From Halobacteriales archaeon QS_4_69_225 (GTDB lineage Archaea; Halobacteriota; Halobacteria; Halobacteriales; Haloarculaceae), in assembly GCA_003020965.1 (NCBI GenBank), contig PXRL01000026.1, positions 124,001-188,000 on the forward strand: 64,000 nt of DNA, written 5' to 3'. Numbering within the stretch: the first letter of the stretch is position 1; every line of letters starts with the position of its first letter. The notes below the pieces were generated by a model. It did not search any database and had not been told where the DNA came from. It worked only from the letters and a program-made list of their open reading frames with translations. This document shows positions 13,606-21,766 of the stretch, one piece after another. The position numbers were made by a program, and so were the translations under genes.

Positions 13606-14022
13606 TCAGCCCGCGGCGACGAGGCCGGCCACGAGCCAGAGACAGCCGCCGAGCAGCACCGCGAACCCGGCGAAGAGGACGACCCCGCTGCCGAGGGCGG
13701 TGCCGACCGCAACGAGCGCCCAGCCGGCGCCGCCGACGGCGTGGGCGATGCCGATCCGGCGCCGGCCCCGGCGGAGGTAGGCGGTACCGCCGAACGACAG
13801 CCCGACGGCGACGACGATCACCGACAGGAAGGCGACCGGCAGCCGCGTTCCGCCGACCGCCAGCGGGTCGACGAGCGGCTCCGCGAGAAAAAGTAGCCCC
13901 CCGACGCCGACCGCGAGACCGATGACCGCCGGCACCGGGTCGAACTCCGCGGCGTCGCCGTCGCCAGCCGGGCCGACGTCGGCGGGGCCGAACCGGAACT
14001 CGCGGTCGTCGTCGCCGCTCAC
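13606..14022 (-). CDS. uncharacterised membrane protein (GTG start)
   Basis: GTG start overlaps the stop of the upstream zinc-ribbon gene; four hydrophobic segments. Confidence 0.65.
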   Translation of the reverse strand: MSGDDDREFRFGPADVGPAGDGDAAEFDPVPAVIGLAVGVGGLLFLAEPLVDPLAVGGTRLPVAFLSVIVVAVGLSFGGTAYLRRGRRRIGIAHAVGGAGWALVAVGTALGSGVVLFAGFAVLLGGCLWLVAGLVAAG

Positions 14023-14522
14023 AGCGTCCGGTAGACGCCGTCGCTTTCGGTCACCTCGCCGGCCTGCCGGAGCTTCTCGAGGGCCCGCTCGACGTACGAC
14101 TCCGGGACGCCCGCCTCGGCGGCGTACTCGCGGACGGCGTCGGCGGTCGGCTCCTCGAGGTCGGCCAGCGCGTCGAGGACGACCTGTCGCCGGCTCCGGG
14201 AGCCGCCGCCTTCGGTCGCGCGCTCGCCGGCCGCCGTGGCGGCCTCGGCGTCCAGTCCGGCCGCCGAGAGGTACGCCTCGTCGCTCATGCCGACCTCGTC
14301 GGGGTCGATCTCCGCCGGGTCGACGAACTCCCCCTCGTCGGCCCGGTCGGCCAACATCGACCCCCGGACGCGGGCGGCCGCCTCGGAACTGTCCGTCTCG
14401 GCGAAGGCCTTCAGCTTCTCGAAGCGGTGTCGCGTCCGACAGCGGGGACACTGCGTCGTCTCCGGTCGCCCCTCGACGACCCAGAGGTGCTGACAGTCCG
14501 AGCAGCCCACGACCGAGTACAT
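14019..14522 (-). CDS. zinc-ribbon plus winged-helix protein (DUF5817-like, haloarchaeal)
   Basis: MYSVVGCSDCQHLWVVEGRPETTQCPRCRTRHRFEKLKAFAETD, C-terminal wHTH-like region. Confidence 0.8.
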   Translation of the reverse strand: MYSVVGCSDCQHLWVVEGRPETTQCPRCRTRHRFEKLKAFAETDSSEAAARVRGSMLADRADEGEFVDPAEIDPDEVGMSDEAYLSAAGLDAEAATAAGERATEGGGSRSRRQVVLDALADLEEPTADAVREYAAEAGVPESYVERALEKLRQAGEVTESDGVYRTL

Positions 14523-14649
14523 ACCGCCTCTCACGACGTCGCAGGACAAAAACCCAGGGCTGCCGCGGGCGGTTGTGTTTCGTTAAGCAATGCTGGCGGA
14601 AAATTCACCGCCGGGCGGGACTGGAAGGGGCGGGCTCTCGGCGAGCGAG

Positions 14650-14870
14650 ACGACGCAAGCAGCGAGGGACCTCCGGTCCCTCGGGCCGCTCGCGCGGCGC
14701 CGCCGCGCGAGGAGACCGCAGGACGCAGTCCGAGGACCGTGGTTCGAAAGACGGCTCCCCGAGCCGTCTTTCGTCATTGCGGGAAATCGAAGATTTCCCG
14801 CTTGCAGTCAGAACGCGATGCGTTCTGACGACATCACGAGAGAGCTTCGCTCTCTCGAACGACAGCGAGT
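14650..14870. repeat. hairpin array A: six tandem stem-loops, mostly 9-11 bp stems with 3-nt loops
   Basis: CGAGGGACC-TCC-GGTCCCTCG; CTCGCGCGGC-GCC-GCCGCGCGAG; GAAAGACGGCT-CCCCG-AGCCGTCTTTC; GCGGGAAATC-GAA-GATTTCCCGC; TCAGAACGC-GAT-GCGTTCTGA; CGAGAGAGC-TTC-GCTCTCTCG. All perfect. Confidence 0.9.
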
Positions 14871-14992
14871 CGCAGCCGCCGAGAGCGCAGGGGCTTCCGG
14901 GGTCTTGTCCACTCCGTTCACATCGTATTTACTCTTGACAGTAGCACCCTACAGGCCGAAACCCACAACTGGCCGGCGGCCGCTCTCGGGAT

Positions 14993-15865
14993 ATGGAGGG
15001 TATCGGACCGCCGCTCGTCACCCCGTTCGACGCCGACGGCGACGTCGACCACGACCGCCTGCGCGAGCTCGTCGCGTGGCTCGAGACCCGCGGCGTCGAC
15101 TTCCTCGTCCCCTGCGGCTCGAACGGCGAGGCCGAACTGCTGGGCGCCGCCGAGCGGACGGCCGTCGTCGAGACGGTCGCGGAGGCGGCGTCCGTTCCCG
15201 TCCTCGCCGGCACGGGCCGGCCGGGGACCCAGGAGACGGTCGAGGCCACCGCCGCGGCCGCCGAGGCGGGCGCCGACGCCGCCCTCGTCGTCACCCCGTT
15301 CTACTACCGCCACGACCAAGCCGCGCTGGCGGCCCACTACCGGACGGTCGCCGACGCCGCGTCGATCCCCGTTTACCTGTACTCGGTGCCGAGCTACACC
15401 GACGTCCGGCTGGCGCCGAAAACGGTCGGGGAGCTGGCCGGCCATTCGAACGTCGCCGGGATGAAAGACTCCAGCGGCGACGTCGACGCGTTCGTCCGGA
15501 CGCGGCGGGCGACCGCCGACGAGTCGTTCGACCTGCTGGTCGGCAGCGGCGGCGTCCTGGCGCAGGCGCTTGCGGCCGGCGGCGACGGCGGCGTGTTGGC
15601 GCTGGCGAACGTCGCTCCGGCGGCGACGACGGCGGTGTACGACGCCTTCGCGGCCGGCGACGCGGAGCGCGCCCGGGCGCTGAACGCCGACCTCGTCGCG
15701 TTGAACCGGGCGGTGACCGCCGAGTTCGGCGTCCCCGGGCTGAAGAAGGCGATGCGGGCCCGCGGCGCCCCGGCCGGCCACGCCCGGTCGCCGCACCGAC
15801 CGCCCGACGAGGCGGCGACCGAGCGGCTGGCGTCGCTGCTCGAGGCGGCCGGACTCGACGACTGA
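14993..15865 (+). CDS. dihydrodipicolinate synthase / N-acetylneuraminate lyase family aldolase
   Basis: GIGPPLVTPFDADGDVD, LVPCGSNGEAELL, PFYYRHDQAAL, YLYSVPSYT, GMKDSSGD. Confidence 0.88.
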   Translation: MEGIGPPLVTPFDADGDVDHDRLRELVAWLETRGVDFLVPCGSNGEAELLGAAERTAVVETVAEAASVPVLAGTGRPGTQETVEATAAAAEAGADAALVVTPFYYRHDQAALAAHYRTVADAASIPVYLYSVPSYTDVRLAPKTVGELAGHSNVAGMKDSSGDVDAFVRTRRATADESFDLLVGSGGVLAQALAAGGDGGVLALANVAPAATTAVYDAFAAGDAERARALNADLVALNRAVTAEFGVPGLKKAMRARGAPAGHARSPHRPPDEAATERLASLLEAAGLDD

Positions 15866-18457: not shown

Positions 18458-19396
18458 ATGCGCGTTATCGCCCACGGCGGCGCCGGCACCCCGCCCGAGG
18501 AACCGGCGGACAGACAGACGGCGCTCGAGGAGGCCACCGCGGCCGGCGCGGCGGCGGCGACGCCGACCGACGCCGTCGTCGTGACGCTGCGGGCCCTGGA
18601 GTCCGACCCTCAGTTCAACGCCGGCGTCGGCGGGGCCGTCCAGTCCGACGGCCACGTCCGAACCGACGCCGGCCTGATGACCGACGACCGCGCGGTCGGC
18701 GCCGTCGCCGGGATGCCCGGCGTCGAACACGCCGTCGACGTCGCCCGCGTCGTCAAGGAGCGAACGCCGCACGTCCTCGTGACGGGCGTCCACGCCGTCG
18801 ACCTGGCGGCGGCCGCCGGCGTCGAGGCCGGCGTCGACCTCCGGACCGACGAGACCGACCGACGGTGGGCCGACGTCGACGCCCCCGACGGCGACCCCCT
18901 GGCCCACGCCGACTGGGTGCGCGAGCGGTTCGGCGACCGTCTCGCGGCGGCGCCGGACACGGAGGCAGATTCGGAGGCCGAGACGGGGGCGAACGACGAC
19001 GACCATGACCACAATCACGACCACGACACCGTCGGCGCCGTCGCGACCGACGGCGACCGGGTTGCTACCGCCACCTCCACCGGCGGCCGGTGGCTGGCAC
19101 TGGCCGGCCGGGTCGGCGACGTCCCGCAGGTCGGCGCCGGCTTCTACTGTACGCCGGCCGGCGGTGCCTCGGCGACCGGCGCCGGCGAGGACATCGCCCG
19201 GACGACCCTCTCGCGGCGGGCGGTCGACCGCCTCGCCGACGGCGCGGACGCCCAGACGGCCGCCGAGGCCGCGATCGAGGAGTTCGGCGGCCTCGTCGAG
19301 GGGTCGGCTGGGGTGATCCTCATGACGCCGGACGGCGACGCCGGGGCGGCCTACAACAGCGAGGCGATGCAGACGGCTGTCGCCGGCGAGGTGTAG
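18458..19396 (+). CDS. isoaspartyl peptidase / L-asparaginase (Ntn hydrolase)
   Basis: MRVIAHGGAGTPPEEP, FNAGVGGAVQSDG, HDTVGAVATDGDRVATATSTGG (nucleophile Thr in GTVGAVA context). Confidence 0.9.
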   Translation: MRVIAHGGAGTPPEEPADRQTALEEATAAGAAAATPTDAVVVTLRALESDPQFNAGVGGAVQSDGHVRTDAGLMTDDRAVGAVAGMPGVEHAVDVARVVKERTPHVLVTGVHAVDLAAAAGVEAGVDLRTDETDRRWADVDAPDGDPLAHADWVRERFGDRLAAAPDTEADSEAETGANDDDHDHNHDHDTVGAVATDGDRVATATSTGGRWLALAGRVGDVPQVGAGFYCTPAGGASATGAGEDIARTTLSRRAVDRLADGADAQTAAEAAIEEFGGLVEGSAGVILMTPDGDAGAAYNSEAMQTAVAGEV

Positions 19397-21287: not shown

Positions 21288-21439
21288 GCCGGTACCCACG
21301 TCGGCGCCGGAATAAACGCTTTCGCCCCCTTCAGCGGCGGTGTTCAGATAGGCACCGGCGAGCCGGTCCGTTTCTGCCGGAGAACCAACCGAATCCTGGC
21401 GGACTGAAAGGGCGAGGCGCTGCGTGGCGGCTTCGCCGT

Positions 21440-21700
21440 GGTTCGAGAGAGCCGAAGCTCTCTCGTCATCACGAAAGGCGCGAAGCGCCTTTCGAACGAC
21501 CACGTTAGATGGCGGCCGGTGAAACCGGCCGCCCACTCGACGACCCTCGACGACGCAAGCCGCGAGGGAGCCGCAGGCTCCCTCGGCCCGCTCGCGCGGC
21601 AGCGCCGCGCGAGGACACCACAGGGAGCAACGCGACCGAGGAGCGTGGTTCGAAAGACTCGCCTCGAGCCGTGCGAGCGGGCCGAAGGCCCGCGAGCAGA
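21440..21700. repeat. hairpin array B: six stem-loops with 3-4 nt loops
   Basis: CGAGAGAGC-CGAA-GCTCTCTCG; CGAAAGGCGC-GAA-GCGCCTTTCG; GGCGGCCGGT-GAA-ACCGGCCGCC; CGAGGGAGCC-GCA-GGCTCCCTCG; CTCGCGCGGC-AGC-GCCGCGCGAG; GCGGGCC-GAA-GGCCCGC; spacers shared with array A. Confidence 0.9.
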
Positions 21701-21766
21701 AGTCGAGAGCGCCGAGGGCTTTCTCCTGCGTCCCGTTCTCCCAAGCCTCATCTGAATATCACTCTC

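Follow-up and report, generated by a model that had tools for sequence, protein, structure and literature searches.

A haloarchaeal array of conserved-stem triloop hairpins, probably carried by an IS6-type MITE

The hairpin array described here (array A) is probably the inside of a non-autonomous IS6-type MITE with ISH14/ISH29-like ends, with its hairpins acting as folded single-stranded DNA. It lies in the window, the whole stretch of 64,000 nucleotides that was analysed, and is one of a family of dispersed arrays. That the same perfect stems recur in many copies with differing triloops indicates selection on, or repair of, folded DNA rather than a CRISPR or a simple repeat.

Array A and its counterparts in the genome

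A sequence-only reading of this DNA had described six perfect hairpins, and all six were recovered, spanning 14663-14857 (Table 1). The 3-nt loops given for five of them stand. The sixth, given as an 11-bp stem with a 5-nt loop, had been read out of register; it is CGAAAGACGGCTC-CCC-GAGCCGTCTTTCG, with a 13-bp stem and a 3-nt loop, and hence all six hairpins (6/6) are triloops. The array had also been placed after the DUF5817 gene. That gene is on the minus strand with its start near 14522, which puts the array 5' of it, in a divergent gap with the DUF5817 gene on one side and a DHDPS-family gene (14993, plus strand) on the other. A CRISPR is ruled out, as had been supposed, the array being made of six different palindromic units and short conserved linkers with no identical direct repeats or unique spacers; a simple tandem repeat is ruled out by the same unit structure. 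ARAGORN called a tRNA-Gly at 13978-14069 and a tRNA-Ala at 18824-18914, both within coding sequence. These calls in the window are probably false positives from high-GC DNA.

Table 1. Positions of array A, its carrier element, the neighbouring genes and the second element of the family in the window
Feature	Position	Strand	Description
DUF5817 protein gene	14022..14522	-	Left neighbour, reads away from element A; PF19134, E=3.7e-28
Left target-site duplication	14563..14570	.	CCGCGGGC; read from sequence, 8-bp rule from family
Element A	14571..14948	.	Probable IS6-type MITE with hairpin array; family terminal-repeat consensus, copy alignments, empty site in G007
Outer 10-bp stem, left half	14634..14643	.	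GCTCTCGGCG; encloses all hairpins; from folds
Hairpin 1	14663..14683	.	Stem CGAGGGACC, loop TCC
Hairpin 2	14689..14711	.	Stem CTCGCGCGGC, loop GCC
Hairpin 3	14745..14773	.	Stem CGAAAGACGGCTC, loop CCC
Hairpin 4	14779..14801	.	Stem GCGGGAAATC, loop GAA
Hairpin 5	14807..14829	.	Stem GTCAGAACGC, loop GAT
Hairpin 6	14837..14857	.	Stem CGAGAGAGC, loop TTC; module occurring throughout Halobacteria
Outer stem, right half	14877..14886	.	CGCCGAGAGC; from folds
Right target-site duplication	14949..14956	.	CTACAGGC; decayed
DHDPS-family (DapA-like) gene	14993..15865	+	Right neighbour, reads away from element A; PF00701, E=1.8e-65
Element B	21336..21763	.	Second MITE of the family; ends GGCGGTGTTCAGATAGG ... 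ATCTGAATATCACT

Hairpins of this geometry are in excess in the genome. In 1.97 Mb, 185 perfect hairpins with a stem of at least 9 and a loop of 3 were observed, against 36 in a fifth-order Markov simulation, and for loop lengths of 4-12 the counts equalled the background of the same simulation. An excess of loop-1 hairpins in the first scan was traced to loop-3 hairpins whose loop ends chance to pair. Clusters were defined as at least three triloop hairpins with stems of at least 8 and gaps of at most 60. There were 31 such clusters in the 1.97 Mb and 0 in ten Markov simulations, which were of order 1 and 5. Chance is excluded as the source of the clustering in array A. Gap lengths between hairpins peak at 5-7 nt, and the largest cluster in the genome holds nine hairpins. 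Element B carries the second array in the window, with five hairpins at 21444-21613. One of its hairpins has a 4-nt loop (CGAA), a rare exception to the loop length of three.

When 60 clusters were sorted by site with our own crude gene finder, 28 were tandem, 11 divergent and 7 convergent, and 14 were in predicted ORFs. A function as transcription terminator was rejected: element A lies between divergent genes, the linkers have no T runs, and the clusters show no convergent excess.

Terminal repeats, target duplications and spread

The carrier of the hairpin arrays is most likely of a known kind, namely an IS6-type MITE. Element A measures about 378 bp between its ends, GGTTGTGTTTCGTTAAGC on the 5' side and ...TTGACAGTAGCACC on the 3' side, where the terminal repeat has been damaged by a small deletion. 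At this length the element is too short to encode a transposase, and the only ORFs in it are mechanical ones. Its two flanking duplications match at five of eight positions, and the three mismatches are all transitions. A genome search with positions 14580-14900 returned 111 matching segments, which lie at about 40 sites as dispersed copies or part-copies. Copies of the family begin with GGTAGTGTTCAGATAAG, GGTCGTGTTTAGTTAAG or GGTCGTGTTTAGTTAAGC-like sequence and carry the inverse of the same at the other end; the genome has 59 occurrences of this terminal motif and a single one of its reversed control. Inverted pairs of the motif are bordered by 8-bp duplications, identified in this genome by eye from the inverted-pair output. 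Several are exact, and those of five elements are gtggcggc (C10:127728), cacggcgc (C12:72994), cggctacc (C23:92224), ctcatcaa (C3:140812) and ggcgcgac (C9:121826). Both terminal repeats were found in 10 of the 31 large clusters and one repeat in 9.

The same two end types (GTGTTCAGATAAG and GTGTTTAGTTAAG) are carried by the PF13610 IS6 transposons of relatives, and exact 8-bp duplications, such as TCCACCGG and GCACACGG, flank five IS6 elements of these relatives. An IS6-type transposase was assigned as the probable mover because terminal repeats and 8-bp target duplications are common to the arrays and the IS6 transposons. The autonomous IS6 relatives are 697 bp long with ORFs of about 212 codons; ISH29 has been described as having 697 bp, 211 aa and a target-site duplication of 8 (PMC6807381). 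PF13610, the IS6 transposase, was present in 38 of the 61 genomes searched, and the host genome's own assembly (89% complete) gave no match to it. For relics, a resident IS6 transposase need not be present, nor need one be found where the assembly is incomplete.

Comparison with relatives revealed an empty site. In relative G007 (locus L242), the same two genes are 84 bp apart, against 470 bp here; its DUF5817 gene is 92% identical to that beside element A, and its DHDPS-family gene is also kept. Between G000 and G013, with about 95% identical DNA, several array elements occupy a site in one that is cleanly empty in the other. At locus L288 (G013:C72:62812-65952), one array of this sister species has a left flank that matches C12 76458-77841 of the present genome and a right flank that matches C23 80180-79085. 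The position of these flanks on two contigs here hints at recombination between two arrays that rearranged the chromosome.

A different mover would be a Y1 (RAYT) transposase, acting on REP/REPIN-like or IS200/IS605-derived single-stranded DNA elements. As in REPINs, the arrays are clustered short intergenic palindromes that can fold as single-stranded DNA (PMC3116915). Such an origin is nevertheless highly improbable. A check for RAYT/IS200-like transposases had been advised in the sequence-only reading, and no Y1_Tnp (PF01797) was found in the 89% complete genome by a search that was positive in Haloferax volcanii and other controls. Unlike elements of IS200/605 type, those of this family have inverted repeats at their ends and target duplications of 8 bp, and the ends suggest an IS6-type DDE transposase. 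An assignment to the PATEs was also rejected, since the family has terminal inverted repeats and a target duplication and PATEs are defined, in the available text of their description, without both (PMC3119063).

The module of hairpin 6, CGAGAGAGC-NNN-GCTCTCTCG, occurs in at least 116 places in GTDB species genomes. Among the matches listed, all were in Halobacteria or archaeal bins except one Microbacterium locus, which was without the linkers. The module was also seen on two viral contigs, IMGVR_UViG_3300009095_000218 (L437) and IMGVR_UViG_3300021446_000141 (L438), and arrays may enter haloviruses. The arrays have matches in 43 of 61 relatives and 27 of 39 genera. Arrays inspected in several other genera were without this terminal motif; the hairpin chain may therefore be carried by elements of other kinds too. 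At locus L221 (G005:C3:103500-107500), a hairpin array directly adjoins an IS6-type element with a different end type, GCACTGTCTGGTTGAG. This arrangement is perhaps a nested insertion or a capture.

Stems, loops and the folded state

Aligned copies have stems, linkers (TCATT, TTGCA, GACATCA, GGCCG and others), flanks and ends in common, and hairpin modules come and go. The six stems, described before as all different, are each a recurrent module found in many copies and not one-off sequences, and the most variable part of the hairpins proved to be the loop, rather than the stem. The stem of hairpin 1 was found again in other copies with the loops GGA, TCC, TTC and GAA, and the loop-proximal stem of hairpin 2 reappears with at least ten different loops. 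Compensatory change, also part of the sequence-only reading, is supported at the family level, with structure kept. Across haloarchaea, the slot between the linkers GTSGTY and TSAT holds 24 different perfect stems, with 90% pairing against 69% when partners are shuffled. Of 172 arm bases that had changed between copies at 90-95% identity, 96 had a partner with the matching change, far more often than expected for two independent changes. Stem covariation of this sort is predicted both by selection for pairing and by arm-to-arm templated repair.

Loops change much faster than everything around them. In pairs at least 97% identical outside the loops, 83 of 212 loop bases differed (39%), against about 1% of other bases (arms 11/1447, linkers 6/526, flanks 21/1627), with columns assigned to classes from the hairpins in one copy before comparison with the other copy. 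In disjoint best pairs, the odds ratio for loops against linkers and flanks was 7 (p about 9e-24). The contrast is conservative: in a few cases clusters overlap, so that a locus is set against itself, which shifts the result towards identity. The copies at C10:127897 and C17:22714 show this most clearly, with 11 of 18 loop bases changed against 1 of 153 other columns. The variability was replicated in 116 loci of other haloarchaea, isolates included (loops 92/208, arms 15/1261 and spacers 74/2349 differing), and is therefore not a quirk of one metagenome assembly.

With 56 transversions and 32 transitions, the loop changes are not dominated by transitions, and deamination of the cytosine deaminase type was rejected as their source. 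Exact loop inversions between orthologues were seen in two clear cases, GCT/AGC and GCG/CGC. Inversion was rejected as the main process, with reverse-complement loops in 3 of 70 cases among paralogues, against 5% expected.

The tips may also be rewritten in the course of copying. Among orthologues, with flanks about 5-9% diverged, loops were identical in 8 of 16 cases between G000 and G013 and in 4 of 5 from two other species pairs, or 12 of 21; among paralogues at least 96% identical, with self-overlaps removed, about 19 of 65 were identical. These counts, which are small and partly made by hand, are suggestive of loop change that accompanies copying more than time. It is conceivable, if on the whole doubtful, that the elements are copied by a route that gives each copy fresh triloops and keeps stems, linkers and flanks faithful, with change tracking copying, not time. 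If true, this would be a structure-guided, loop-specific diversification of DNA hairpins throughout an entire class of archaea.

The composition of the loops bears on the molecule that folds. Of 192 family hairpins, 185 (96%) are closed by a C-G pair, and recurrent stems that close do so on a loop of exactly three in 120 of 129 cases. GNA and TNC loops account for 102 of the 192 (53%), against 10% expected in C-NNN-G contexts. On two or more G-C pairs, C(GNA)G has been shown to form an exceptionally stable, nuclease-resistant DNA mini-hairpin (PMC4686876). GNA was found on either strand: oriented units of one hairpin had 8 GNA and 17 TNC, and in the adjoining hairpin slot GNA was commoner. A strand-specific function was rejected, as there is no consistent GNA strand. 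The RNA version of the GNA mini-hairpin is much less stable, and structured RNA would favour tetraloops.

Folding alone does not decide between DNA and RNA, because element A folds as both (z=-6.1 as DNA and z=-7.0 as RNA), in each case with an outer stem and hairpins round a multiloop. If the arrays were structured non-coding RNAs, hairpins would be kept for RNA folding, and loops would vary as nothing binds them. The strong RNA folding fits such a role, as does stem covariation, which RNA selection predicts too. This is still quite unlikely to be correct. Rfam 15 gave two sub-threshold, unrelated matches and none above the gathering score; the matches, to Burkholderia and Streptomyces sRNAs, were taken as chance hairpin matches. 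The C(GNA)G and C(TNC)G triloops have no clear strand preference, whereas RNA would favour one strand, and neutral loops do not account for a loop difference so far above that of unconstrained flanks (39% against about 1%). Selection on RNA or on a DNA cruciform had been proposed together; the RNA part, for which foldability speaks, was not upheld, and the DNA part is favoured by the C(GNA)G loops and by the lack of strand preference. From loop composition and strand symmetry, we infer that the hairpins would act as DNA.

Folded DNA could also arise with no function at all. Template switching at replication would keep the arms perfect, single-stranded tips would be mutation hotspots, and the MITE would be a mere carrier. 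Much of the data suits mutation alone: the arms are perfect and compensated, the loops are hypervariable, their changes are of mixed type and include the exact inversions among orthologues, and insertion sites have no regulatory bias. We regard it as a serious explanation, though a somewhat improbable one. By itself it leaves the near-fixed C-G closing, the loop length of three and the GNA excess unexplained without selection or a stability filter, and the orthologue and paralogue counts make loop change look tied to copying.

In the preferred reading, that of folded DNA within an IS6-type MITE, the element would have been inserted between two divergent genes by an IS6-type transposase working in trans on the terminal repeats, as the common ends and target duplications suggest. 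Through the modular hairpin chain and the outer stem, either strand, when single, would fold into a multi-branched set of C-NNN-G triloops. The hairpins may be exposed in this form during replication, transposition or repair. Arm pairing would be maintained through selection or through the copying of one arm from the other, and the three loop bases would be replaced much faster, with an outcome biased to stable GNA loops. This turnover and bias are observed, and their cause would lie at the level of DNA. At a guess, the hairpins would help the element to persist or be copied in the form of structured DNA.

Known systems and significance

Several known systems resemble the arrays in part. The IS6/IS26-family insertion sequences of ISH14/ISH29 type are like the array elements in the form of their terminal repeats, their GG outer ends and their 8-bp duplication; the array elements differ in their size of about 250-680 bp, their lack of a transposase and their chains of triloop hairpins. 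The MITEs, PATEs and SMRs of Haloquadratum are, like the arrays, transposase-free mobile repeats of haloarchaea. In the available text of their description, the MITEs end in repeats akin to those of known transposons and are in many cases flanked by target duplications; unlike the array elements, PATEs have neither terminal inverted repeats nor a duplication, and SMRs have no duplication. That text mentions no arrays of several hairpins with variable triloops (PMC3119063).

The REP, BIME and REPIN sequences of bacteria (PMC3116915) share with the arrays their mosaic intergenic palindrome clusters, their spread within a genome and their ability to fold as single-stranded DNA. Mobility by RAYT has been proposed for them, whereas the arrays have IS6-type ends, an 8-bp duplication, perfect stems and hypervariable triloops, with no Y1 transposase. 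The palindromic elements of Volvox organelles (PMC2670323) are likewise short, intergenic in their spread and nested, with 3-5-nt loops; their loop is conserved (TTTA/TAAA), whereas in the haloarchaeal arrays the loop is the variable part. The d(GCGAAGC) mini-hairpin (PMC4686876) resembles the family in its C(GNA)G triloop and G-C rich stem, and about half of the family loops read GNA on one strand. It is a chemical motif studied in vitro, and the array hairpins are a genetic element.

No earlier description of the hairpin-array family was found in a search of mostly open-access literature. In our reading, the inside of the array is new: a modular chain of compact triloop hairpins whose stems are conserved or covary and whose tips are almost random. 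Specialists would be surprised by the turnover of the loops.

The finding explains a prominent part of the intergenic DNA of haloarchaea that seems not to have been described before. Hundreds of natural DNA hairpins, with a fixed geometry, stems that are conserved and tips that are close to random, provide a ready-made test of the cellular processing of hairpin DNA: are the tips mutation hotspots, are they cut and refilled, or are they rewritten at transposition? The family also bears on whether selection in vivo favours stable C(GNA)G hairpins. The tie to a specific transposase type makes the mobility of the arrays testable in genetically tractable haloarchaea.
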